A stretch of DNA of 28,472 bases, taken from positions 1 to 28,472 of the IMG/VR virus record IMGVR_UViG_3300017767_000086. One strand, given 5' to 3'. Below, piece after piece: positions 5,834-26,520 of this stretch. Made by a program: the position numbers and the translations under genes. The notes under the pieces are model-generated. The model saw only the letters and a list, made by a program, of their open reading frames with translations, had not been told where the DNA came from and made no database searches. This DNA comes from a virus. The first letter of the stretch is position 1, and each line of letters opens with the position of its first letter.

Positions 5834-6469
5834 ATGGAAAATGTAAACCTTAATACTGACGTTGTCGCTTCAATCGTAACCAGCGAAAAGGCAATTATCC
5901 GGCGCAAAAACAAAAACGCCGATAATACCGCTCAAAACAATGTCGCACGGCTTGGCAACTATGCCGCAATCGCGGTTGAGATTGCCGACCCGAAACGCTT
6001 TCCGCGCAATAAGGGCGGCAAGAATTTATTTGATACTACAGTATCGGGTGAGATTAAACGCCAGCTAGAAAACGGCGGCGTTACTACCTCGCAAGCTAAA
6101 TACTACTATCGCCATGCCGCTGACCTTGTCCGCGAATTGAAATTGAACGGCAACGCTACCGCTTCACAAGTCGCGGAGTTTTTCACAGACAATGAAATCA
6201 CCAGCGAAGCAAAACTGAAGTCTTACTTCTCCGGCGATAGCGCGAAATCTGCTTATGACAAGCTACTCGACAAGGCAATCGGACGCCTGACAAAAACGGG
6301 CAAGGTATCCACCGAAGCGGCTGTATTGCTGACCGATGCAGATATTGAAAAATTCGCCGCTGATTGCAGGGCGCGGCTTGCCGATGCCCAACGTGAAACC
6401 GAAGCGGTCGAGCAGGCCGTGCAGGACAACGCAACGGTTGGCGATGTATTCGCCAAGGTCACCGCTTAA
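5834..6469 (+). CDS. Unknown protein, first clear gene of the plus-strand operon
   Basis: A 211-residue soluble protein that I do not recognise. The N-terminal 60 residues are basic and Asn-rich (IIRRKNKNADNTAQNN). The middle (about 65-145) reads as a helical domain (SQAKYYYRHAADLVRELKL, then SQVAEFFTDNEI). The C-terminal 60 residues are a long charged Ala/Glu-rich helix (about 170-200), possibly coiled coil. No membrane segment or catalytic motif is seen. The start has CAGGAG ten bases upstream. As the promoter-proximal gene in an early-type operon it could be abundant, and the basic N-terminus would suit nucleic acid binding, but that is conjecture. Confidence 0.8.
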   Translation: MENVNLNTDVVASIVTSEKAIIRRKNKNADNTAQNNVARLGNYAAIAVEIADPKRFPRNKGGKNLFDTTVSGEIKRQLENGGVTTSQAKYYYRHAADLVRELKLNGNATASQVAEFFTDNEITSEAKLKSYFSGDSAKSAYDKLLDKAIGRLTKTGKVSTEAAVLLTDADIEKFAADCRARLADAQRETEAVEQAVQDNATVGDVFAKVTA

Positions 6470-6518: not shown

Positions 6519-6851
6519 ATGCGAAAAGTTACAAAACAAATTGCCGAAGCTTTCAAAAACGGTAAAAGCCTGACAATTAAAAACACTAAAACAGACGGTC
6601 AATCGGTCTGGTTACACGGCAACGAGATTGCCCGAAAAACAGACTATGGAATTGAAGTAACGCTAGCCGGATGGCCTACCGTCACAACGCGCGAGCGGGT
6701 GGATGGCATCCTGCAAGTTTATCAATCAAACATGCGTATTATTCAGCGCAACGGCGAACAACGTGCAATTTCACTGGCAAGCGATTGCAAATCAGGGGTT
6801 GCTATACACGAATGCGACTGGATAAACCCCGAAAACTACCCCTGCTTCTAG
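6519..6851 (+). CDS. Small unknown phage protein
   Basis: A 110-residue protein with a lysine-rich helix at the start (VTKQIAEAFKNGKSLTIKNT), a beta-rich middle (QSVWLHGNEIARK, then VTLAGWPTVTTRERVDGIL) and a tail with two cysteines (about residues 88 and 99). The phrase LAGWPTVTTRERVNGI recurs, as I remember it, in small hypothetical proteins of many environmental phages, so the gene is likely real and mobile, but no function is known to me. The start at 6519 has AGGAG with 8-base spacing. It is followed by cassette 3. Confidence 0.78.
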   Translation: MRKVTKQIAEAFKNGKSLTIKNTKTDGQSVWLHGNEIARKTDYGIEVTLAGWPTVTTRERVDGILQVYQSNMRIIQRNGEQRAISLASDCKSGVAIHECDWINPENYPCF

Positions 6852-6857
6852 GGGCAT

Positions 6858-6901
6858 GTGAGGCGCAAGCCTCACCCTTTAAACAATCAGGAGAATATGA
6901 A
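6858..6901 (+). promoter_or_regulatory. Hairpin/ribosome-site cassette 3
   Basis: GTGAGGC (6858-6864), GCAA tetraloop, GCCTCAC (6869-6875), then CCTTT and TCAGGAG. The stem bases differ from cassettes 2 and 4 but the pairing is kept. The AATATGAAATG double start is present again. Confidence 0.75.
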
Positions 6902-7078: not shown

Positions 7079-7144
7079 GTGGGGCGCAAGCCTCACCTTT
7101 TCGCGTGCAAAATTAGTTGCATGCAACTTTTTCAGGAGAAAATT
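7079..7144 (+). promoter_or_regulatory. Hairpin/palindrome/ribosome-site cassette 4
   Basis: GTGGGGC (7079-7085), GCAA, GCCTCAC (7090-7096) form a 7-bp stem with one G-T pair. The regulatory palindrome follows at 7114-7129 as TAGTT-GCATGC-AACTT, with a self-complementary core. Then come TTTT and CAGGAG. Confidence 0.75.
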
Positions 7145-8161
7145 ATGAGACTATCAACAGCTATGAATATCATCAAAGCATCATGCACCGACCAATGGTC
7201 AGCACATGGCGGTCAATACGTCACCTGCTATCTAGAAGGTAGCGCAGGCGGCGGGAAAACCAGCGCGGTGCGGCAAGTCGCGGATGATTTGGGCGCGGTG
7301 TTTATCGACCAACGCCTGACTGACCGTGACTTCACCGAAGTGTCGGGCTGGCGTATCCCCAACGCTGACAACAGCGCGATGATACACCTGACACCTGACT
7401 GGTTCGACTTTGACCCAGCCAAAAAATATGTTCTGTTCTTTGACGAATTGCCACAGGCACCCGTCACTAATCAGAACATTGCGGCGCAGATTATCAACGA
7501 GCGGTCACTGGGCGGTCATATCCTGCCGGACAATGTCGCTATCGTATGCGCTGGCAATCCAGCAAAAGATAGGGCTGGCACCAACACCATGCCGACCCAT
7601 CTGCGCGACAGGTTGACGTTTTTGCCTATTGAAAGCGACCTCGAAGACGTTGTCGGATATTTCGCGGCGAATAACCGCGACCCGCTTGTCATTGGCTACC
7701 TACGCGCACGGCCTGACAATCTGCACAAGTTTGACCGCGATGCAAAAGCATGCCCTAGCCCTCGAAGCTGGGACAAGGTCAGCACATTGCTGGGCTTTAC
7801 CCTGCCCGATGGCGCGTTTCAACATGCTTTGTTTGGCACGGTTGGCGATGGGGTAGGCGCAGACTTTCTAGCCTATCGCAAGCTAACGACTAAAGCCCCT
7901 GCGATTGCTGATATTATCGCAGACCCAGATGGCACACCATTGCCGGAGGAAAGTGACGTATTGTATGCGCTATGCGCTGGCCTATCAGCTAGCCTAAAGC
8001 CCGACAATGCCACACCGATATGTGCATATCTCGACCGCATACCGCAAAAAGAAATGGTCGCCTTTGTGATGCGTGACGCTATCAATCGTGACGCAGACCT
8101 AAAGCAGGCCAAGGCGGTGCGTGACTGGGCTTTGAATGGCGGCGTTGACTTGTTCAACTAA
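7145..8161 (+). CDS. MoxR-family AAA+ ATPase
   Basis: A 338-residue ATPase. It has Walker A GSAGGGKT (about residues 32-39), Walker B VLFFDE (96-101), a sensor-1 Asn in CAGNP (138) and arginines in LRDRL (154/156) suited to be the arginine finger. MoxR-type enzymes work as hexameric chaperones that remodel a target, normally with a VWA-domain partner encoded next door. That is exactly the arrangement here, with the DUF2201-type gene starting 60 bases downstream. The start at 7145 follows CAGGAG at good spacing, and the longer in-frame start at 7079 is rejected because it would include cassette 4. The phage target is unknown: host complex remodelling or virion maturation are both possible. Confidence 0.9.
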   Translation: MRLSTAMNIIKASCTDQWSAHGGQYVTCYLEGSAGGGKTSAVRQVADDLGAVFIDQRLTDRDFTEVSGWRIPNADNSAMIHLTPDWFDFDPAKKYVLFFDELPQAPVTNQNIAAQIINERSLGGHILPDNVAIVCAGNPAKDRAGTNTMPTHLRDRLTFLPIESDLEDVVGYFAANNRDPLVIGYLRARPDNLHKFDRDAKACPSPRSWDKVSTLLGFTLPDGAFQHALFGTVGDGVGADFLAYRKLTTKAPAIADIIADPDGTPLPEESDVLYALCAGLSASLKPDNATPICAYLDRIPQKEMVAFVMRDAINRDADLKQAKAVRDWALNGGVDLFN

Positions 8162-8165
8162 AACT

Positions 8166-8221
8166 GTGGGGTTTCGCCACCCCACCTTTAAGTTTCATAT
8201 AACTTTTATCAGGAGAAAATT
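8166..8221 (+). promoter_or_regulatory. Hairpin/palindrome/ribosome-site cassette 5
   Basis: GTGGGGT (8166-8172) with ACCCCAC (8179-8185), loop TTCGCC, then CTTT. The exact palindrome AAGTT-TCATAT-AACTT lies at 8190-8205 and overlaps the run into ATCAGGAG. ATG is at 8222. Confidence 0.8.
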
Positions 8222-9352
8222 ATGGACACACAACTTAAAATTGCACGTTCACGGACGCAGGCACTTATCCGCGCGCCCTTTTATGGGGCCGTGCTTATGG
8301 GATTGCCTAGCGAAGAAGCTACAGGTCAGACCGAAACAATGGCGACCGATGGCAAGCGTGTGCTTTACGAAAGCGTATTCGTTGACGGGCTGACCGAAGA
8401 TGAATTGCTGTTCGTGAATTGTCACGAAGCATTGCACGTTGCATTTTGTCACCACCTACGCAGAGGCGAGCGCGATGCCAAGCTGTGGAACATTGCCACA
8501 GATTACGCAATCAATATCCTGCTTGCGGATGCCAGCATAGGTCACATGCCAGCGGGTGGATTGCTTAACCCAGACTATCGGGACATGAGCGCGGAGCGTA
8601 TCTATGACTTGCTCAGACAAGAGCAGGAGCAAAGCGGCACAAGCCCAGAACCTTGCCCGTGGGGTGAGGTTACTGAGCCGACCAATGACGATGGTTCGCC
8701 ATTGTCAGCGGAGCAGGTCGAAGCGATGGAAGCTGACATTTCTCAGCGGATTATCGCGGCGGCTGACAGGGTACGGGAAGCTGGCGGCGACTTGCCGAAT
8801 GCGATAAGCGACCTCATTGAGGAGTTGATGACCCCGAAGGTAGATTGGTGCGATGTACTGCGCCGATTTGCTGGCGGCGAACAGCCCGATGGCGTGACGT
8901 ATCAGCGTGTCAATCGCAAGCATTTCCACCACGGGCGCATGATTATGCCCAGCATTGACCGTATTGGATGCGGCAATATCGTGGTCGGGATTGATAGTAG
9001 TGCATCACTGAGCCAGAGCGAACTGACACAGTTTGTCAGTGAACTCAACGCTGTGACCGAAGAACTGTCACCGGAAAGCGTGACCGTGATTGTCTGCGAC
9101 ACACGGGTGCGCGAGGTACACCACTTTGGGCAGGGCGACATCATTGATGCGCTAGACGTAAAGGGCAGGGGCGGCACACGGATTGCCCCTGTGTTTGAGT
9201 ACATTGACGAGCATGGTCTGGATGTTGATAGCTTTATTTACTTCACCGACTTGTACGTTAATGACTTCCCAGCACCGCCCAGCTTTCCCACGCTATGGGT
9301 TAGCACAGGCAAGGATGACGCGCCTTTTGGCGAGGTCGTCAAGCTAGACTAA
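8222..9352 (+). CDS. Metallopeptidase-like plus VWA-like protein (DUF2201 type), MoxR partner
   Basis: A 376-residue two-domain protein. The N-terminal part has a zincin-type HEALH (about residues 68-72) with a following WNIATDYAIN whose Asp94 may be a further metal ligand. The C-terminal part is a VWA-like domain with a MIDAS pattern: D258-S-S260-A-S262, Thr319 in GRGGTR and Asp343 in FTDLY. This order (peptidase-like domain, then VWA-like domain) and the adjacent MoxR ATPase are characteristic of DUF2201 partners. Likely role: the ATPase moves or loads this protein onto a target in the cytoplasm. Whether it cleaves protein is unknown, though the HExxH residues are intact. Confidence 0.88.
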   Translation: MDTQLKIARSRTQALIRAPFYGAVLMGLPSEEATGQTETMATDGKRVLYESVFVDGLTEDELLFVNCHEALHVAFCHHLRRGERDAKLWNIATDYAINILLADASIGHMPAGGLLNPDYRDMSAERIYDLLRQEQEQSGTSPEPCPWGEVTEPTNDDGSPLSAEQVEAMEADISQRIIAAADRVREAGGDLPNAISDLIEELMTPKVDWCDVLRRFAGGEQPDGVTYQRVNRKHFHHGRMIMPSIDRIGCGNIVVGIDSSASLSQSELTQFVSELNAVTEELSPESVTVIVCDTRVREVHHFGQGDIIDALDVKGRGGTRIAPVFEYIDEHGLDVDSFIYFTDLYVNDFPAPPSFPTLWVSTGKDDAPFGEVVKLD

Positions 9353-9353
9353 T

Positions 9354-9412
9354 GTGGGGGGCGCAAGCCCCCTACCTTTAAGTTTCATCTAACTTTTTAT
9401 CAGGAGAAAATT
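9354..9412 (+). promoter_or_regulatory. Hairpin/palindrome/ribosome-site cassette 6
   Basis: GGGGGC (9357-9362), GCAA, GCCCCC (9367-9372), extended by G54-C75, T55-A74 and a G-T pair at the base. Then CTTT, the exact palindrome AAGTT-TCATCT-AACTT (9380-9395), TTTATCAGGAG and ATG at 9413. Confidence 0.8.
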
Positions 9413-10357
9413 ATGGATGATTTACAAAAAATATACACACCTCATGTTCGTGAGGAGATAACACGGATGCGTAAGGTTTACGGCATACCCCATGCTGTCA
9501 TGGATGTTTTATCCAAGCAGGGGTTGCGCGGTGTTCGCTGGTCAAGCGATGCACAGGTGGAGAATTTCCACGACTATCTAGAAAGCGAGTACGGCGACAA
9601 CTTTGCCGATGCCACACTTGGGTATGTTAGTGGTCTGATGCACCAGATTAGCACCGCGCGAACACGAGTGCAGAACATTACCACGGCAGGAAGATTTGAG
9701 GCTTCTCAGCGACCACTAATGGAAGACTACTTAGCTGACAATCTCAAAGCCTTGGAAAACTATTGGGACAAAATGTTTTCTCGTACAAAATGTGCGACAT
9801 ACCAAACGCATCGTGACAACTATATGGGCGACAGGGTTTTGTTCGCCGCTGGCACGGGTGCCTTCAATAGTGCCGTGCAAAGGAACCATGTTGAACGGCT
9901 TGATGAATTGAAGCGATGGCACAGTAGCGAAAATGGCGAAACAGAAGTTGTTGAAGAATGCCAAGGCCACTACAGCACCATCAAAGTTTTTAGAAACGAT
10001 AGCGACAAGGTTGTTAGCACAGGCTGTATCGTGAAGGTTGGTCACGACTGGAAGTATCGTCAAGAACGAGACATGCACAGTGTTGTTGTTAACAGCAAGA
10101 ACTACCTTGTCACACACTGCCGTAAGGTAGACCATCCTTACGTCGATGAGCCAGACCGCGATTGCTACAAGGCTCATATTGTCGGGGTCAATAAGAAAGA
10201 AATCGACTATCAGGTCGGGCATCTTGTTGTCCACAAAGGTCACAGCAAGGTAACCAAGGCTTTCAGCGCAGGTAATGGCGGCGCAAAGACTGCCAGCCAG
10301 CTACTTGACCGCAGACTTAGAAAGTCGGTTGTCGATACGTTGATGGACAATCTCTAA
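9413..10357 (+). CDS. Unknown 314-residue protein
   Basis: I do not recognise this protein. Residues 1-140 look mainly helical and charged (YTPHVREEITRMRKVYGI, LKALENYWDKMFSR). Residues 150-280 look beta-rich with many His, Cys and Asp (ECQGHYSTIKVF, YLVTHCRKVDHPYVDEPDRD). The tail is basic (LDRRLRKSVVDTLMDNL). The His/Cys content could reflect metal binding, but no standard zinc-finger spacing is present. The start has CAGGAG at ideal spacing and the gene sits directly after the MoxR/VWA pair, so it may be a substrate or third component of that complex. That is only guilt by association. Confidence 0.82.
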   Translation: MDDLQKIYTPHVREEITRMRKVYGIPHAVMDVLSKQGLRGVRWSSDAQVENFHDYLESEYGDNFADATLGYVSGLMHQISTARTRVQNITTAGRFEASQRPLMEDYLADNLKALENYWDKMFSRTKCATYQTHRDNYMGDRVLFAAGTGAFNSAVQRNHVERLDELKRWHSSENGETEVVEECQGHYSTIKVFRNDSDKVVSTGCIVKVGHDWKYRQERDMHSVVVNSKNYLVTHCRKVDHPYVDEPDRDCYKAHIVGVNKKEIDYQVGHLVVHKGHSKVTKAFSAGNGGAKTASQLLDRRLRKSVVDTLMDNL

Positions 10358-10360
10358 TAT

Positions 10361-10410
10361 GTGGGGGGTGAAAGCCCCCCCACCTTTTCAACTAAATCAG
10401 GAGAAAGATT
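10361..10410 (+). promoter_or_regulatory. Hairpin/ribosome-site cassette 7
   Basis: GTGGGGGG (10361-10368) pairs with CCCCCCAC (10376-10383) around a seven-base loop, followed by CTTTT and AATCAGGAG. The palindrome is absent here: only CAACTAA remains in its place. Confidence 0.72.
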
Positions 10411-10627: not shown

Positions 10628-10686
10628 GTGGGGGGCGCAAGCCCCCTGCCTTTTTGTTACATATAACTTTTTATCAGGAGAATGTT
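10628..10686 (+). promoter_or_regulatory. Hairpin/palindrome/ribosome-site cassette 8
   Basis: GGGGGC (10631-10636), GCAA, GCCCCC (10641-10646), then CCTTTTT, the most terminator-like tail of the set. The palindrome is TTGTT-ACATAT-AACTT (10654-10669), followed by TTTATCAGGAG and ATG at 10687. Confidence 0.78.
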
Positions 10687-19824: not shown

Positions 19825-22800
19825 TTACCTATACAATTCTGACACAACCATGTTGCCGCGCTGTGTTGCACGTTGCAGTTGCTCGTCTATCTTGTCGAGC
19901 ATCTTTCGTTTGGTGACATCAGGGATGCGGGGGTTCTTGGCTATCTGTGCTTTCTTTCTTATCAATCTGTTTCTCGCATTGTTGGTAGCTTTCATACGAC
20001 CAAGAAGTTTTAGCTCTTTTTGATATTGAGAGCGTATATATTCTATTCTGTTTTTATCCTTGCGGGTGATGGCATCTTTTAAATCTGCCTCTATCTGTAG
20101 TATCTGGTCACGCCCCTCAATAAATCTGGTCGTATCTTCTCTGGTGCTAATTGAGCCTATGAGTTTACGAGTGAAGGGGATTTGTCTTAGCCCCTCTTCA
20201 CTAAACAGCGAGGCAGGGTCATCTACGGTATTAAACGCAAAGCGCCCAGACCGTTCAACAAATCGCCCAACGCCACCCGTTAAGAACCCATACCAGTATT
20301 CCATTACGTCAGGTGACCAATCAATAAGACCCGACTTGGCTGGTGAGCCGCCCGTTGCAGTGTTCAGGAAATCGGCAGTGTTCTTAAATACTGGAGATGT
20401 TGTTGACCAATAAAGCTGACTGTCTGGTTTTTGTATTCCAAATGGGGAGCCTTCTTTGTAAACAGGCTTGTTTGCGAAGTCTTTGTTTTCATAAAGGTCA
20501 ACGAATGGGTCGGTAACAGTGGGAGATAAAAAGTTTCCTAGGCTTTCAGTGCCGCCAATCGGATTGACTGCGTCAACAAATGTGCCAAAGAAGGAGTTGG
20601 TGAACTGACCATTTGTGTATCCGCCACGACCTCTTCTTGAAAGACTGCGCCCCATGTTTACAGCAAAGTTGAGGCCGTATGGCATCGGTATACTTAAATA
20701 CTCTCTGCCCCCCAGACCGTTAAGTTTAATAACAAAGTTATGTTCGAGTACATGGTCTGGTATTTTGTCTACCATTTTCTGGCCGTCTTCATCATCTTCA
20801 GACATAAGCGCCAAGAGTTGGTCTTGCAAGAACCCGGCGACGACAGCGCCCATCCATATAGCCCGAACTTTTTTGCTTCTAACAGCGGCAGACATTAGCG
20901 CAAAACTACCTTGGATAGATGCGTTATAGAAAAGATACAAAGAGTTCATAAGAACTTTTTGGTCACCGCCCTTGGAAAAGTTAACTGTAACATTTCGTGC
21001 GGCCTGACCAGCCCTCGCCCGCGTAAAGCCCTTCTCCCGCAATGTCTTGTAGGTCGCAACGCGGATGGCGTTTTCTATAACATTGTTGTAATTTTCAACC
21101 AGCTTGGCAAGCGGAGTATCTGTTAATCTGTTAACACCTTTCTTGAATTGACTGACCAGCTTTGGGTCATCAGCCGTACCCAATATCTCGTCCATGTTGC
21201 CTAGCTTTTGTTCTAGGCTGTCAATCATGTTGAGCGCACTCTGCCCGCCATCTTCTAGGAACTCTTGATACACCTGAGATAGCTCGTTTGTTTCTCCCGC
21301 TCTTATGATGCCGCGTAATTTTATCACGGTTGAAGGCAACTCTTTAAGAACTGCCTTGGTTATGCCTGCTATCTCAGTAGCATTTATGTTTGTTAGGCCA
21401 GTTGAAATATCTCGCAAGAAGTTAGTTACAAAGAACTCAGGGTTATAACTTGTATTAATACTGGACAGATACCTGTTAACAGAAGTCATTGCCTTTACAA
21501 GGAACATTGAATTATCTGGCCCCAAGCCAGTCGCGCCTTTGAGTGCTTTGGCAATGCGAGGGTCAAGCACATTTATTTGCACTTCTTCGCCATTGACCTT
21601 GACAGTCATTATGCTGGGGTCGTTTTTATCAATGCTACTTACTGTTTTAACGTAGCCATTCTTGCTTAGAACTCTTCGGGTCTTTACCTTCTGCTCAACA
21701 TTAGCAACACCCTCTACAACACTTCTGTAATCCTCGCCCCTCTCTACGGAAACTGACTCACCCTCATCCAAGATGTTGTCTATTCTGGACAACAAGTCTT
21801 GCCTTTCGGCCTCACTTATTCTGGCGTTGCCCTGTATTTCTTGTGCTAATTCTTCACGGGTTTTGGTAACTTCTGATACTGACCCAAAGTCTTCGACTGT
21901 CTTTGTGGTGCTAACTGCCTCAGTCTTGTCTATCATTTTAAGAAATGTCTGACCTACCAAGTTGCGCTGTCCACGGTCTATTGCTCTTTCGTGCTGATTA
22001 AATAAAGAAGCAATAAGATTATCTGGGTAGCTACCACGGCCCAAGGCCGCTATGTATTCTTTACCTTTCGCCCCGTACTTATTGGCAGTCTTTCTTCTTA
22101 TTTCTGCAACCTCTGCCTCAGTCTTGTCTGGGTCAATTTCCAAAAAGCCCTTGAGCGGTACATAATTTTGATACTGCGGGTAAGGCACCCGTGTTTGCGT
22201 GCCTTCATATGTAAGCTCTTGTTTTCTGTCTGGCTCAAGACCAGTTTCAATGTTCATCTTTCTTGTAGCTTCTACAACATCCTGAACGTCTTTTGATATT
22301 TGCTCTAGCTGGGCGCGGGCGTTTTCATCTGCGCCAACTATATTGAGTATCGCGTCAGCCTCTGCGTCTGTCATGCCCGAACCGCTATCGTTCCGTTCAT
22401 CTATCTGACGTATGTATGCGTTTCTTTCTTTTGCATGCATGGCAAACAAGTATGCTTCTGCTAGCGCAAGCTCTGGTTTCCTGCCTATTTGAATTAGACT
22501 TGCATAAAATCCCTTGCCATCTTTGCCCTGTATCGCTTCAAGAGATGCTTGCAACGCGGGATTTACAGGCAGGGATTTAATCCTTTCCAGTATGGGGGTA
22601 AACAATATGTCCCGCGCTCTGCCAAGCATGTACCCTGTCTTGTTGTGGTACTGTTCTTCCATGAGATAGGTGTCAAACATCTCTGGAACTTCAAAGCCAG
22701 CCTTGCGTATCTCATCTATAAACTGTCCAACAGGCAAAAAGGCGTCTTGTAATTTAGTTATTAAGTTATCTGTAACTTCTTTGGCGTCAATGTCTCCGAA

Positions 22801-25800
22801 CAGACCTGTTGAGGCTATGGCTTTAATCGGAACGCCTAGCACCTTCGACATAAACTCCGCGTTTTTGCCATACAGATACACGCCCTTTGCATTGTCCACT
22901 TGTGTTGTGGCTTCTGGGCTTGCCGTAACTGTTGGATGTGTGGGGAGCAGGCTGTATTTATCTCCCGGCTTGAATTTGTTTTCGACTTTGCCCGTTTCTA
23001 TAGCCTCGGTTATCATATCTTGTGTGCCGATGGCGCGGCCAAGATTGTTTCGAGCTTGGTTGTAGGCCATAGGCATAGTTGTGGTGATAAAGTTAACTTT
23101 GCTCGCCAGTATTTCTGGGTCTGATACCACAAGTTTAGGAGTGGCATTAACTATATCTTCGACTTCGTTTATAAATGCTCGGCGCATTATTGTACGCATG
23201 ACCAAGTTCTTATTGAGGCCGTTGTTGCCGAACCAGTACAACTCAGTGGTAAAGGATTCAGTTGGATAGACTGGGCTTCTGGCCCTAACCTTTTGCGTAA
23301 CCTGTATTACACCGTTTATTTTCTTTAATTTGATTTCATTTATCGTGCGCTCATTTCCGCGTTGCAAGACGGGGATGCGGATTGGAACACCCCCTTGCTG
23401 GTCTAGCTGGCGCATCATTGCATCCATTGCGTCCTTTGCGCTGGGATAACTACTGCCTTTTACATAAGCCGCATCTTTGCCTCCGCCCTCTATATGAGCA
23501 AGGCCGTGGTTCGTGCCACTTTCTTCTCCGTTGATAATATGCCTGCCGTTTGTAAGGGCAATCACCTTGGCGACCCCATCCCTATCTACAAACTGACCAA
23601 ATATAGGTGTGCCTACGCTGTTAGGTATTAGTTCAAACTCACTACGCACGACACTGTATTTAATTTCTCCACCATCTTGTGGAATTTGTCGTGCTGGCAT
23701 GGCCTCTAAAAAGTCTTCTGCCGTTTCTATATTTATTTCTGTGTCAACAGCGCCCTCTTCTGTCGCCTGTACAATGCCTGCGTCTTCCTCTGGGGATTCC
23801 CCAGTGACTATCTCGCGCGCGGCTTCCATTGCGCTTTCTTTCACAGCTTCTGTGACTGGCAGGGCGGCACCCAACTCTCTTATTCTTGCTCTATTTTCTG
23901 CGCTTGCTATTTCACCGCTTTCGATGCTGGCAAATATATCGTCGGGACTTGCAAAGCCCGTGTCCCTGAACCCGCTCATAACAGCTTTGAAAAAATCAAT
24001 TATTCTGTCGAACAATGTTTTGGTTGTACCCACAACCTTTAGCTGACCGCCCGCATACATGCGGAACATCTCTGCAATAGCCTCTTCTACTATTGTCGCC
24101 TCATCTCTGCCTCTATACATATCTGCGGCGCGGTCATAGAACGTGTATTCGCGTAACTCTGTTGAGCCATCGCTGTTTACTTTTACAAACTTTCTGGTCT
24201 TGGCGGCTTTTGTAAGTGTCGCCCACTCCTGTTGTGTAAACAAACCTATGTCAAATAGCGCATGCAGTAGTTCATGGTTTGCCACGCCCATGACGGTGGC
24301 CTCAAACTCTTGAGGGTCTGCGTCTAAGCCATGCATTGCCGTTGCTAGTGTAATAATTTTTTCGCTTGGGTTATATGAGCCTTGTGCCAAAAAGCCTTTT
24401 GGCCCATCTAGTTTTGCCACAACCTCCACCGCCTCAAGGTCTTGGTCTATGCCTATTTCTTTTATTCTTTTCTTAACAGCAGTCTCTACCTCTTGCCGCG
24501 CGTTCTCAAACTTTGTTGTTACCCTGATTGCTTCATCACGCTTAGTTCTCGCGGCATTTTGGGCATCGGTATTTAGCTGTGGCCCCTGCTTCGACCTAGC
24601 CGTTTTGCGCCTTGCTCTTTGAGCCTTGAGTATTTTTGCCAATCTATCTAATTCAGACTGACCTTCCGCTACACGCGAGCGGGCATCCTCTATTTCAGAT
24701 ATGGCTTTCTTGTATTTCTCTGGCTGGCTCTGCTCAAACTTTGCAATCTTGTTTTCTTCTTTTGCTATTTGCCTTTCTGCCGCCTCAACAGAGGTTTGTA
24801 ACTCAGAAACCCTTTGCTCAAGCTCTCGTAGTGGCCGAGCTTTTGTTTCTGCATCGGCAGTCGCGGCGTATTTGTTTCTTTTATATTCTTCTATTACCCC
24901 GTCTGCGACCATTCTCTTTCTGATGGCAACAGCGCCAGCACGATTAACTTTGCTGACCTTCATAATGTCCTGAACACTTACGTTGGCGTTTTCTACAACC
25001 TCGCCTTCGTTATTTCTGGTTTGTGCAATAGATAGGCGTACAGCCTTTTCATACTGCGACCATCTAAATCCATCAGGTTTTTCAAAGTATGTCTCTGGTG
25101 CGCCGTCTAGGGTTCCCCTGAATGTTAGGGGCTTTTGTTGCCTTGCAATGCGGTTTGCGGCTGTCTTTCCCAGAATCTCTTGTACTTCTGGTAGCTCGAT
25201 ATCTCTACCGGGTTCCGGGTCACCACGTTCTTTTCGCGTATCCCGAACTTTTTTCTGCTCATTCTTTTTTAAATGCGCGATTTTTACAGGAGAAAAGTTG
25301 GTTGCAACTTCCTCCTTAATGCCAGAAATAACTGAAGCCCTGCTTTCAGGTGGTATGTTTTCATCATTAAAAGGTATGGACTGCTGTTCAATAACACCAA
25401 TCTGTGGGTCATCAATTTCCTCAAGGTTTGTGGCCCTGTTTGATTGTAGGTCATATTCCTCTTGCTGTGCTATCTTGGCCGCAGTCGGAACCTTGTCTTC
25501 TTTTTGGTCTTGCTTTAGCTGTGTCTGCGCTACCGTGTCTTCCTTGTCACGTTTAACGGAGTCAATCGTTCCGCGCACCGTGCCGCCAACAATACCAGCG
25601 GCAACGCCCACCTCAAGATATTCTTTGTACGCTTCTTCACTATCAATAGGTTTGCCAGCCTGAATGCGGGTAAGAATTGTTTGCCCTATTTCGGTTGGCA
25701 TTTCAGCTATCGCACCTTTAAATGCACCTGCCCCCGCCCTTTTTGCAATCTCTTTCTTGATGCTCTCGCCAGCAACGCCTGATATGTTTTTTGCCCCAAC

Positions 25801-26520
25801 AAAGGCCTTTTTAGTCAGAAGGGGTTTGGCTATCTTGCCGCCCAAGCCAAGAACTATCCTGTCACCAAGGGTGTCCAAGAATGTTGCGGGCAGTGCAAAC
25901 AGCGCCGCCGCCCCATCATCAACGTGAGGCAGTATTCCTTCCGCCACACTTTGGTCTTGCTCAAGTAGATTTTCACCAAATAAAACAGGATAGTTTAGGG
26001 CCGCGCCTGCGCTTGCACTAAGAATAGTTGCGCCAGTGCCAGCCAGCCCCAACGCAGGAGCCGCAACAGCCGCCGCTCCCGCGCCAACAGCAGTAGGCAC
26101 CAAGGTTGCAATGCCTTGTCCTAGCGTTTCTCCAACATAAGTGAGGCCAGAGCTAATGCCCGAAACATCTTCAAGGCGTGTGGCGTATTGCGCTACGTCC
26201 TGTAGCTCTGCCTCGTTGTGGGCGACAACCTCTTCACCATATTCTTCAAGACCCTTGAAGCCTATGTTTTCTCCGACAGACTGGAGCGCCCTGCCAAACA
26301 TCATTTGCGTTTGGTCTACGCCCATGCTCAAGCCCCTGCCAAAAGCGGTTCCCGGCGGGTTGGTTACCTCTTCTATCTCTTGTTCTGATATTTGCAGAAT
26401 ATCGCCCCGTTGGGCGACAAGGTTCTTGAATTTTTCTAGCTCTTGCGCCGTGGGTGTATTACCAGCAATCTGCGCTTGATATACCTGTCCACTTTTACCT
26501 AATCGAAGTATCTGACCCAT
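19825..26520 (-). CDS. Giant polyvalent virion-associated protein (2231 aa)
   Basis: A very long protein, probably packaged and perhaps injected with the DNA. Seen in order: a hydrophobic Ala/Gly-rich stretch (about 137-180); a winged-helix-like segment, VQDIMKVSKVNRAGAVAIRK (about 510-535), similar in style to the FtsK gamma domain; a coiled coil (about 560-640); a zincin-type HELLH (749-753); a segment with NHGLAHIEGGG (about 1004-1014) like MuF/toxin-type domains; and NPEFFVTNFLRD (about 1690-1702) with a long helical C-terminus, resembling LPD38-type polyvalent domains. Domain calls beyond HExxH and coiled coil are tentative. It is the last gene of the minus-strand structural module. Its ribosome site is weak and lies 7 bases after the upstream stop. 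Confidence 0.85.
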   Translation of the reverse strand: MGQILRLGKSGQVYQAQIAGNTPTAQELEKFKNLVAQRGDILQISEQEIEEVTNPPGTAFGRGLSMGVDQTQMMFGRALQSVGENIGFKGLEEYGEEVVAHNEAELQDVAQYATRLEDVSGISSGLTYVGETLGQGIATLVPTAVGAGAAAVAAPALGLAGTGATILSASAGAALNYPVLFGENLLEQDQSVAEGILPHVDDGAAALFALPATFLDTLGDRIVLGLGGKIAKPLLTKKAFVGAKNISGVAGESIKKEIAKRAGAGAFKGAIAEMPTEIGQTILTRIQAGKPIDSEEAYKEYLEVGVAAGIVGGTVRGTIDSVKRDKEDTVAQTQLKQDQKEDKVPTAAKIAQQEEYDLQSNRATNLEEIDDPQIGVIEQQSIPFNDENIPPESRASVISGIKEEVATNFSPVKIAHLKKNEQKKVRDTRKERGDPEPGRDIELPEVQEILGKTAANRIARQQKPLTFRGTLDGAPETYFEKPDGFRWSQYEKAVRLSIAQTRNNEGEVVENANVSVQDIMKVSKVNRAGAVAIRKRMVADGVIEEYKRNKYAATADAETKARPLRELEQRVSELQTSVEAAERQIAKEENKIAKFEQSQPEKYKKAISEIEDARSRVAEGQSELDRLAKILKAQRARRKTARSKQGPQLNTDAQNAARTKRDEAIRVTTKFENARQEVETAVKKRIKEIGIDQDLEAVEVVAKLDGPKGFLAQGSYNPSEKIITLATAMHGLDADPQEFEATVMGVANHELLHALFDIGLFTQQEWATLTKAAKTRKFVKVNSDGSTELREYTFYDRAADMYRGRDEATIVEEAIAEMFRMYAGGQLKVVGTTKTLFDRIIDFFKAVMSGFRDTGFASPDDIFASIESGEIASAENRARIRELGAALPVTEAVKESAMEAAREIVTGESPEEDAGIVQATEEGAVDTEINIETAEDFLEAMPARQIPQDGGEIKYSVVRSEFELIPNSVGTPIFGQFVDRDGVAKVIALTNGRHIINGEESGTNHGLAHIEGGGKDAAYVKGSSYPSAKDAMDAMMRQLDQQGGVPIRIPVLQRGNERTINEIKLKKINGVIQVTQKVRARSPVYPTESFTTELYWFGNNGLNKNLVMRTIMRRAFINEVEDIVNATPKLVVSDPEILASKVNFITTTMPMAYNQARNNLGRAIGTQDMITEAIETGKVENKFKPGDKYSLLPTHPTVTASPEATTQVDNAKGVYLYGKNAEFMSKVLGVPIKAIASTGLFGDIDAKEVTDNLITKLQDAFLPVGQFIDEIRKAGFEVPEMFDTYLMEEQYHNKTGYMLGRARDILFTPILERIKSLPVNPALQASLEAIQGKDGKGFYASLIQIGRKPELALAEAYLFAMHAKERNAYIRQIDERNDSGSGMTDAEADAILNIVGADENARAQLEQISKDVQDVVEATRKMNIETGLEPDRKQELTYEGTQTRVPYPQYQNYVPLKGFLEIDPDKTEAEVAEIRRKTANKYGAKGKEYIAALGRGSYPDNLIASLFNQHERAIDRGQRNLVGQTFLKMIDKTEAVSTTKTVEDFGSVSEVTKTREELAQEIQGNARISEAERQDLLSRIDNILDEGESVSVERGEDYRSVVEGVANVEQKVKTRRVLSKNGYVKTVSSIDKNDPSIMTVKVNGEEVQINVLDPRIAKALKGATGLGPDNSMFLVKAMTSVNRYLSSINTSYNPEFFVTNFLRDISTGLTNINATEIAGITKAVLKELPSTVIKLRGIIRAGETNELSQVYQEFLEDGGQSALNMIDSLEQKLGNMDEILGTADDPKLVSQFKKGVNRLTDTPLAKLVENYNNVIENAIRVATYKTLREKGFTRARAGQAARNVTVNFSKGGDQKVLMNSLYLFYNASIQGSFALMSAAVRSKKVRAIWMGAVVAGFLQDQLLALMSEDDEDGQKMVDKIPDHVLEHNFVIKLNGLGGREYLSIPMPYGLNFAVNMGRSLSRRGRGGYTNGQFTNSFFGTFVDAVNPIGGTESLGNFLSPTVTDPFVDLYENKDFANKPVYKEGSPFGIQKPDSQLYWSTTSPVFKNTADFLNTATGGSPAKSGLIDWSPDVMEYWYGFLTGGVGRFVERSGRFAFNTVDDPASLFSEEGLRQIPFTRKLIGSISTREDTTRFIEGRDQILQIEADLKDAITRKDKNRIEYIRSQYQKELKLLGRMKATNNARNRLIRKKAQIAKNPRIPDVTKRKMLDKIDEQLQRATQRGNMVVSELYR
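20942..20957. promoter_or_regulatory. Near-exact palindrome inside the giant gene
   Basis: GAGTT-CATAAG-AACTT with a TTTTT flank: one half-site mismatch to the repeated palindrome. Its coding location makes chance more likely than for the spacer copies. Confidence 0.3.
22763..22778. promoter_or_regulatory. Exact AAGTT-N6-AACTT palindrome inside the giant gene
   Basis: AAGTT-ATCTGT-AACTT, about 3.7 kb into the 6.7-kb gene. It is too far from any start to be a classical promoter operator. Confidence 0.45.
25295..25310. promoter_or_regulatory. Exact AAGTT-N6-AACTT palindrome inside the giant gene
   Basis: AAGTT-GGTTGC-AACTT, about 1.2 kb after the start of the giant gene. Its right inner half, TTGCAACTT, also appears in the cassette 4 copy as ATGCAACTT. 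Confidence 0.45.

Follow-up and report, generated by a model that had tools for sequence, protein, structure and literature searches.

A fast-diverging protein family linked to a MoxR ATPase and metallopeptidase-VWA pair in phages

Several ATPase rings of the MoxR class act through a partner bearing a VWA domain with a metal ion-dependent adhesion site (MIDAS), as in RavA-ViaA and as described for NorQ-NorD and midasin in the portions of PMC13036017 and PMC8837202 used here. In NorQD, the ring pulls and twists its VWA partner (PMC13036017, in part), and in Mdn1 the MIDAS extracts assembly factors (PMC8837202, in part). With regard to phages, a 2021 study reported, in the portion used here, a MoxR AAA+ ATPase together with a vWA protein carrying an N-terminal metallopeptidase domain in group 2.2 jumbo phages, and proposed that they function in virion assembly (PMC7824862). 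Bacterial MoxR-vWA ternary conflict systems (VMAP, iSTAND) comprise a MoxR ATPase, a vWA protein and a linked third protein, one component being fast-changing (PMC7159879, in part). Here, we describe a related locus of a marine phage lineage in a 28.5 kb piece of viral DNA, IMG/VR record IMGVR_UViG_3300017767_000086, positions 1 to 28,472 (this whole stretch is hereafter called the window). Positions 7145-10357 carry three open reading frames (ORFs) in succession, all on the + strand, which encode a MoxR ATPase, a metallopeptidase-VWA protein and a third protein of 314 amino acids (aa); an initial annotation had proposed this arrangement, and all three ORFs were found where it placed them. The third protein represents an undescribed family and most likely serves, in this lineage, as the subunit by which a MoxR-peptidase-VWA machine recognises its clients.

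The window shares its ATPase and its metallopeptidase-vWA protein with the group 2.2 jumbo phages, for which, unlike here, the consulted part of PMC7824862 names no third component. It shares the use of a VWA/MIDAS partner with NorQ-NorD and midasin, which differ in that they have other clients and that the portions of PMC13036017 and PMC8837202 used here mention no peptidase domain. The VMAP and iSTAND systems carry effector domains C-terminal to the vWA domain (PMC7159879, in part), whereas in the window the VWA domain is terminal and the peptidase domain is N-terminal.

The ATPase and its metallopeptidase-VWA partner

The MoxR-type AAA+ ATPase (338 aa; 7145-8161, + strand) matches the PHROGs family phrog_1297, labelled 'ATPase' (3.1e-72), and a profile built from eight of its relatives finds the AAA modules of midasin as its closest counterparts in the PDB (9.4e-16). 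The Pfam AAA scores remain below threshold, with 14.8 bits for AAA_3 (cut-off 27) and 13.8 bits for AAA_5 (cut-off 22). The Walker A residues G35, G37 and K38, the Walker B residues D100 and E101, and the sensor residue N138 are kept in 61 of 63 relatives, the remaining two having gaps. The start of the gene was taken to be the ATG behind TCAGGAGAAAATT; the program-made ORF list has an alternative GTG at 7079. The second protein (376 aa; 8222-9352, + strand) is a fusion of a metallopeptidase domain (DUF2201_N, 1.9e-30, 106.9 bits) and a VWA-like domain (DUF2201, 8.8e-28, 97.3 bits), both above the Pfam cut-offs. The VWA match covers residues 253-376 of 376, so the protein ends with this domain. 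The HExxH motif and D94, as well as the MIDAS residues D258, S260, S262, T319 and D343, are identical in all 66 VWA proteins. This conservation agrees with the initial annotation, which had described the nucleotide-binding, HExxH and MIDAS residues of the pair as intact. The product of 8222-9352 is named 'HNH endonuclease' in phrog_1314 and in many phage records; this label looks like a spreading misannotation, since Pfam gives DUF2201 and no HNH domain.

The pair itself is not new and is common in phages. In tblastn searches, relatives of the VWA protein were found in 774 of 50,697 phage records and relatives of the ATPase in 765, which, together with the jumbo-phage pair cited above, contradicts the earlier view that a phage-borne pair is unusual. 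Several N4-like phages are among the annotated carriers. Indeed, gp24 (ATPase) and gp25 (VWA) of N4-type Schitoviridae are homologous to the pair of the window, as in EcP1, where the proteins are annotated as similar to N4 gp24/gp25. Unlike the window, the whole records of EcP1, SBP1 and MAG4 are without the third family. The large phage PA5oct has relatives of both pair proteins, and the third family was not found in its whole record.

A third protein family linked to the pair

Searches of Pfam, PHROGs, NCBIfam and PADLOC all came back empty for the third protein (314 aa; 9413-10357, + strand). Foldseek searches with models of this protein and of its counterpart from locus L103 gave no PDB match at E 1e-3. 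A direct search with the protein retrieved no phage record, and a scan of viral contigs retrieved no relative; these searches missed the gene because it is present behind the VWA gene in related loci but has diverged. An iterated profile, built from 51 dereplicated proteins, matches 96 of 245 sequences, once in each (the window and L002, which duplicates part of it, are included). After loci with identical VWA ends had been merged, 191 loci were left, 66 of which belong to the lineage of the window, defined by a VWA blastp score of at least 276 bits, a cut-off picked after the table had been inspected. The third gene is present in 57 of these 66 loci, and the nine others have just 398-1706 bp behind the VWA gene. 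Each of the 43 distinct loci with at least 2.5 kb behind the VWA gene has it there, without exception in the same orientation. In 36 of the 57 loci, no more than 310 bp separate the two genes, and in the other 21 the gap reaches up to 2447 bp. Outside the lineage, the family occurs in only two of the 103 pair loci that extend 2.5 kb downstream, namely Roseobacter phage CRP-7 and its near-copy L089. In CRP-7 (MK613349), the member is gp16, annotated as a hypothetical protein, directly behind the VWA gene (1.8e-29). The linkage put forward in the initial annotation is therefore constant within the lineage and does not extend to pair carriers at large, most of which lack the third gene beside the pair.

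Based on its own profile, its linkage and its structural models, the third gene defines a real and undescribed protein family, which was not named in any paper found in a literature search. A plasmid search found no member of the family. No match was found in six bacterial genomes carrying a relative of the pair, nor in 385 bacterial genomes of the class of one pair-bearing genome, two empty results that are weak since neither search had a positive control. The BFVD match is A0A646QWM3 (321 aa, E 4.7e-7), which may be CRP-7 gp16, judging by protein length only. The protein MM2_64 of phage MinM2 (L079, 6243-7145), encoded directly behind the VWA gene, has a C-terminal end resembling the family (hhalign P 0.004, probability 8%); it may be a very distant member and is treated as a lead that is not counted.

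Other identities were considered for the third protein. A known defence or counter-defence family was ruled out, there being no PADLOC match. DUF3150, annotated between the MoxR and VWA genes in MinM2, gave nothing in hhalign, the comparison with a larger alignment included, and no paper on DUF3150 was found in the literature search. A zinc protein was also ruled out, the best-shared His or Cys in a well-filled column being H274, with 12 of 42 sequences. The initial annotation had described the protein as His/Cys-rich, but this is not meaningful, as none of its 16 His and 5 Cys among 314 residues is conserved. What stands of that annotation is thus the intact pair with a linked third gene, without the rarity of the pair in phages and without the His/Cys richness.

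As a less biased sample, contigs chosen by their terminase (TerL) were searched whole, these being the 26 among 80 loci with a length of 10 kb or more; the 12 positive contigs share at least five members with the first locus set. The MoxR gene is found in 14 of the 26, the VWA gene in 13 and the third gene in 12. Two contigs are partial: G016 ends inside the MoxR gene and G033, the VWA-bearing contig without the third gene, ends inside the VWA gene. All 12 contigs carrying both the VWA and third genes have a single third-gene match, at most 329 bp from the VWA match. The 12 contigs without the module all run out within 3.7 kb of the terminase on its upstream side, either short of the place of the module or at it; in the window, the MoxR start is 3.5 kb from the terminase.

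The third protein may have nothing to do with the pair, its gene being a core gene of the lineage that happens to lie close by. The module seems to occur throughout the lineage, and in 26 dereplicated loci, grouped automatically, the MoxR gene is found in 26, the VWA and third genes in 25 each, an upstream gene encoding 211 aa (gene B; 5834-6469, + strand) in 25 and a primase-helicase gene in 21, so that conservation of gene B and of the primase-helicase is nearly as high (the gaps of L094 and L161 in the VWA and third groups are an effect of overlapping-ORF choice). Nevertheless, every other gene family occurs in at most 10 of the 26 loci, and the flanking genes turn over. Moreover, HTVC027P, HTVC023P, 023Pt_psg01 and DSL-LC04, whose terminases are 52-59% identical, lack both the VWA and third genes in their whole records. 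In CRP-7, the terminase of which is not among the 12 closest matches listed, the third gene remains 15 bp behind the VWA gene, even though seven genes part the MoxR gene from the VWA gene. This joint absence and this persistent adjacency make an unrelated neighbour improbable.

Gene B, a fourth conserved gene overlooked by the initial annotation, has no family match above cut-off, and a relative of it lies upstream of the MoxR gene in MinM2 (hhalign probability 91.7%, E 7.9e-7). As it is kept upstream of the MoxR gene in the 25 loci and in MinM2, the module may comprise four genes.

Divergence, predicted structure and possible role

The three proteins change at very unequal rates. Between the window and three close relatives, identity of the third protein is 49, 42 and 48%, compared with 93, 92 and 94% for the ATPase and 91, 89 and 88% for the VWA protein. 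The non-synonymous divergence (dN) of the third gene is 0.37-0.59, versus 0.03-0.06 for the MoxR gene and 0.04-0.11 for the VWA gene. Across 22 loci, the mean identities are 21% for the third protein, 51% for the VWA protein, 50% for the ATPase and 62% for the primase. The pairwise distances of the third and VWA proteins are correlated over these loci (r 0.91), with a partial correlation of 0.64 when primase distances are held fixed. Within the third gene, the proportion of non-synonymous differences (pN) is 0.37-0.51 over the first 215 residues and 0.10-0.22 over the rest. As the synonymous divergence (dS) is high or saturated, we make no claim of positive selection on the third gene.

These rates bear on a role in virion assembly, in which the pair would build or process virion parts with the third protein as an assembly factor. 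This role was proposed for the same pair in the group 2.2 jumbo phages, with a precedent cited from Acidianus two-tailed virus (PMC7824862, in part), and a second module of virion genes lies near the N4 gp24/gp25 homologues of roseophages according to the part of PMC4193335 used here. However, the terminase is 95% identical in the two of the three close relatives whose contigs include it, and the third gene changes far faster in the same phages. The module of the window occupies the + strand and its terminase the - strand, although neither place proves timing. Overall, virion assembly appears distinctly unlikely.

The structural models of the third protein from the window (predicted local distance difference test, pLDDT, 84.3; predicted template modelling score, pTM, 0.69) and from L103 (pLDDT 87.1, pTM 0.59), which have low mutual identity, share one predicted architecture, comprising N-terminal helices, a sheet domain and a long C-terminal helix. 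The N-terminal helical part is variable, and the C-terminal sheet and helix are better kept. The kept residues are R301 and L310 (42 of 42 sequences each), R83 (38 of 41) and W213 (38 of 42). The family is basic, with a median isoelectric point (pI) of 9.1, versus 4.9 for the VWA proteins and 5.5 for the ATPases. Comparison with the PDB gives middling scores, the best Z being 7.0 for the window model (RF2, 60 residues, 2.5 A) and 5.6 for the L103 model. The basic pI would suit a nucleic-acid binder that would recruit the machine to DNA or RNA, and the C-terminal sheet and helix resemble a double-stranded RNA-binding domain (dsRBD). The window model indeed has a Z of 5.2 with DCL3 (58 residues, 3.2 A) and of 5.1 with a Dicer/TARBP2 entry (63 residues, 3.5 A), and the L103 model a Z of 5.5 with DCL4 (53 residues, 2.7 A). 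Yet a Z below 8 can reflect a common arrangement, RF2 and Rv1738 score above the dsRBD chains, and the Foldseek searches at E 1e-3 gave no match, which makes this role very improbable.

The third protein might instead be the machine's own client, a phage protein folded, assembled or clipped by the ATPase and its VWA partner. The linkage and charge data speak for this as well, and known MoxR-VWA pairs serve a specific partner, as NorQD serves nitric oxide reductase (PMC13036017, in part). However, the rate of a dedicated client should perhaps lie nearer to that of its chaperone, whereas the dN of the third gene is larger by a factor of several to ten; nothing resembling a cleavage motif was noticed, although no systematic search was made. 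We consider it unlikely that the third protein is such a client.

A client selector fits best, because the third family is basic while the pair is acidic, and because its N-terminal part changes fast and its C-terminal part more steadily. A gene that is always kept and yet changes very fast may specify the targets of the machine. We therefore tentatively favour, at somewhat less than even confidence, a phage MoxR-VWA remodelling machine with a built-in predicted peptidase, in which the third protein is a dedicated subunit choosing the client. The MoxR protein would form an ATP-driven ring, on which the VWA protein would dock, handing the client either to this ring or to the zinc peptidase domain that it carries itself; by analogy with NorQD and Mdn1, the VWA protein would hold the client while the ring acts on it. 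The third protein would select this client, its C-terminal sheet-and-helix domain, with the invariant R301, probably docking on the acidic pair and its fast-changing N-terminal part binding a target that varies between hosts.

Several observations weigh against the third protein being a client selector. In 21 of the 57 loci, other genes, up to 2.4 kb in all, lie between the VWA and third genes. The module seems to be present throughout the lineage, so that the linkage is partly accounted for by a core gene being inherited vertically, and the module-less terminase-chosen contigs all stop at or before the place of the module, so that they cannot reveal independent loss. The distances of the third gene also track those of the primase (r 0.87). 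The dS is high or saturated, and replacement of alleles by recombination would fit the rate data as well. The third protein of the window itself has a pI of only 7.7, and the family exhibits no fully conserved acidic residue for MIDAS binding, the best column being acidic in 76% of 42 sequences. Complex formation, client choice, a host target and timing are what we infer from these data.

The pair is also accompanied by other genes elsewhere. Between the MoxR and VWA genes, many other phages carry a gene of about 330 aa, one of which has a weak match to DUF3150 (1e-4, below the cut-off), or a gene of about 235 aa, the one tested matching Nmad5 (3.4e-6), and gut-bacterial loci carry genes of about 130 aa. 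In hhalign, these intervening genes of about 330, 235 and 130 aa have no detectable kinship with the third family (probabilities of about 0.5% or less). Different and mutually unrelated genes are found at this place in L042, L050, L057, L026 and L180. A variable extra component may be a general feature of the pair, as far as a pattern of gene order goes. The module could correspond, in phages, to the MoxR-vWA conflict systems of bacteria, as an AAA+ peptidase machine of three or four parts with a diversifying subunit aimed at a host or defence protein, and with unrelated proteins filling the slot in other phage lineages; we regard this as rather doubtful. With 12 and 10 members, the third family gave no notable Pfam match, though the presence of the VMAP-C model in that Pfam copy was not checked.

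Local context and biological meaning

The spacers of six successive genes are near-identical, each with a G+C-rich hairpin, a short T run and the ribosome site TCAGGAGAA. The hairpins are located at 6858-6875, at 7079-7096, at 8166-8185 after the MoxR gene (+ strand, z -1.87), at 9354-9375 after the VWA gene, with a GCAA loop (+ strand, z -2.90), at 10363-10380 after the third gene (+ strand, z -2.25) and at 10628-10649. Their fold z-scores range from -1.87 to -3.33 over the six spacers, changes in the stems preserve pairing, and an Rfam search found nothing. The hairpin followed by TCAGGAGAA in six of the six spacers examined corresponds to the individual regulatory cassettes recognised in the initial annotation, and the hairpins are possibly weak terminators or mRNA processing sites. 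Near the module, 6519-6851 encodes a relative of the cyanophage family Kyano_Gp96 (Pfam 4.8e-10), also found near the module in L005 and several other loci. On the - strand, 19825-26520 is a single gene of 2231 aa, conserved in part among relatives.

Hundreds of sequenced phages carry the MoxR and metallopeptidase-VWA pair, and the literature found offers only a proposal for its role. The linked, always-present and fast-changing third protein provides a concrete handle on this pair. It is the obvious bait for a pull-down, and its binding partner would show the target of the machine.

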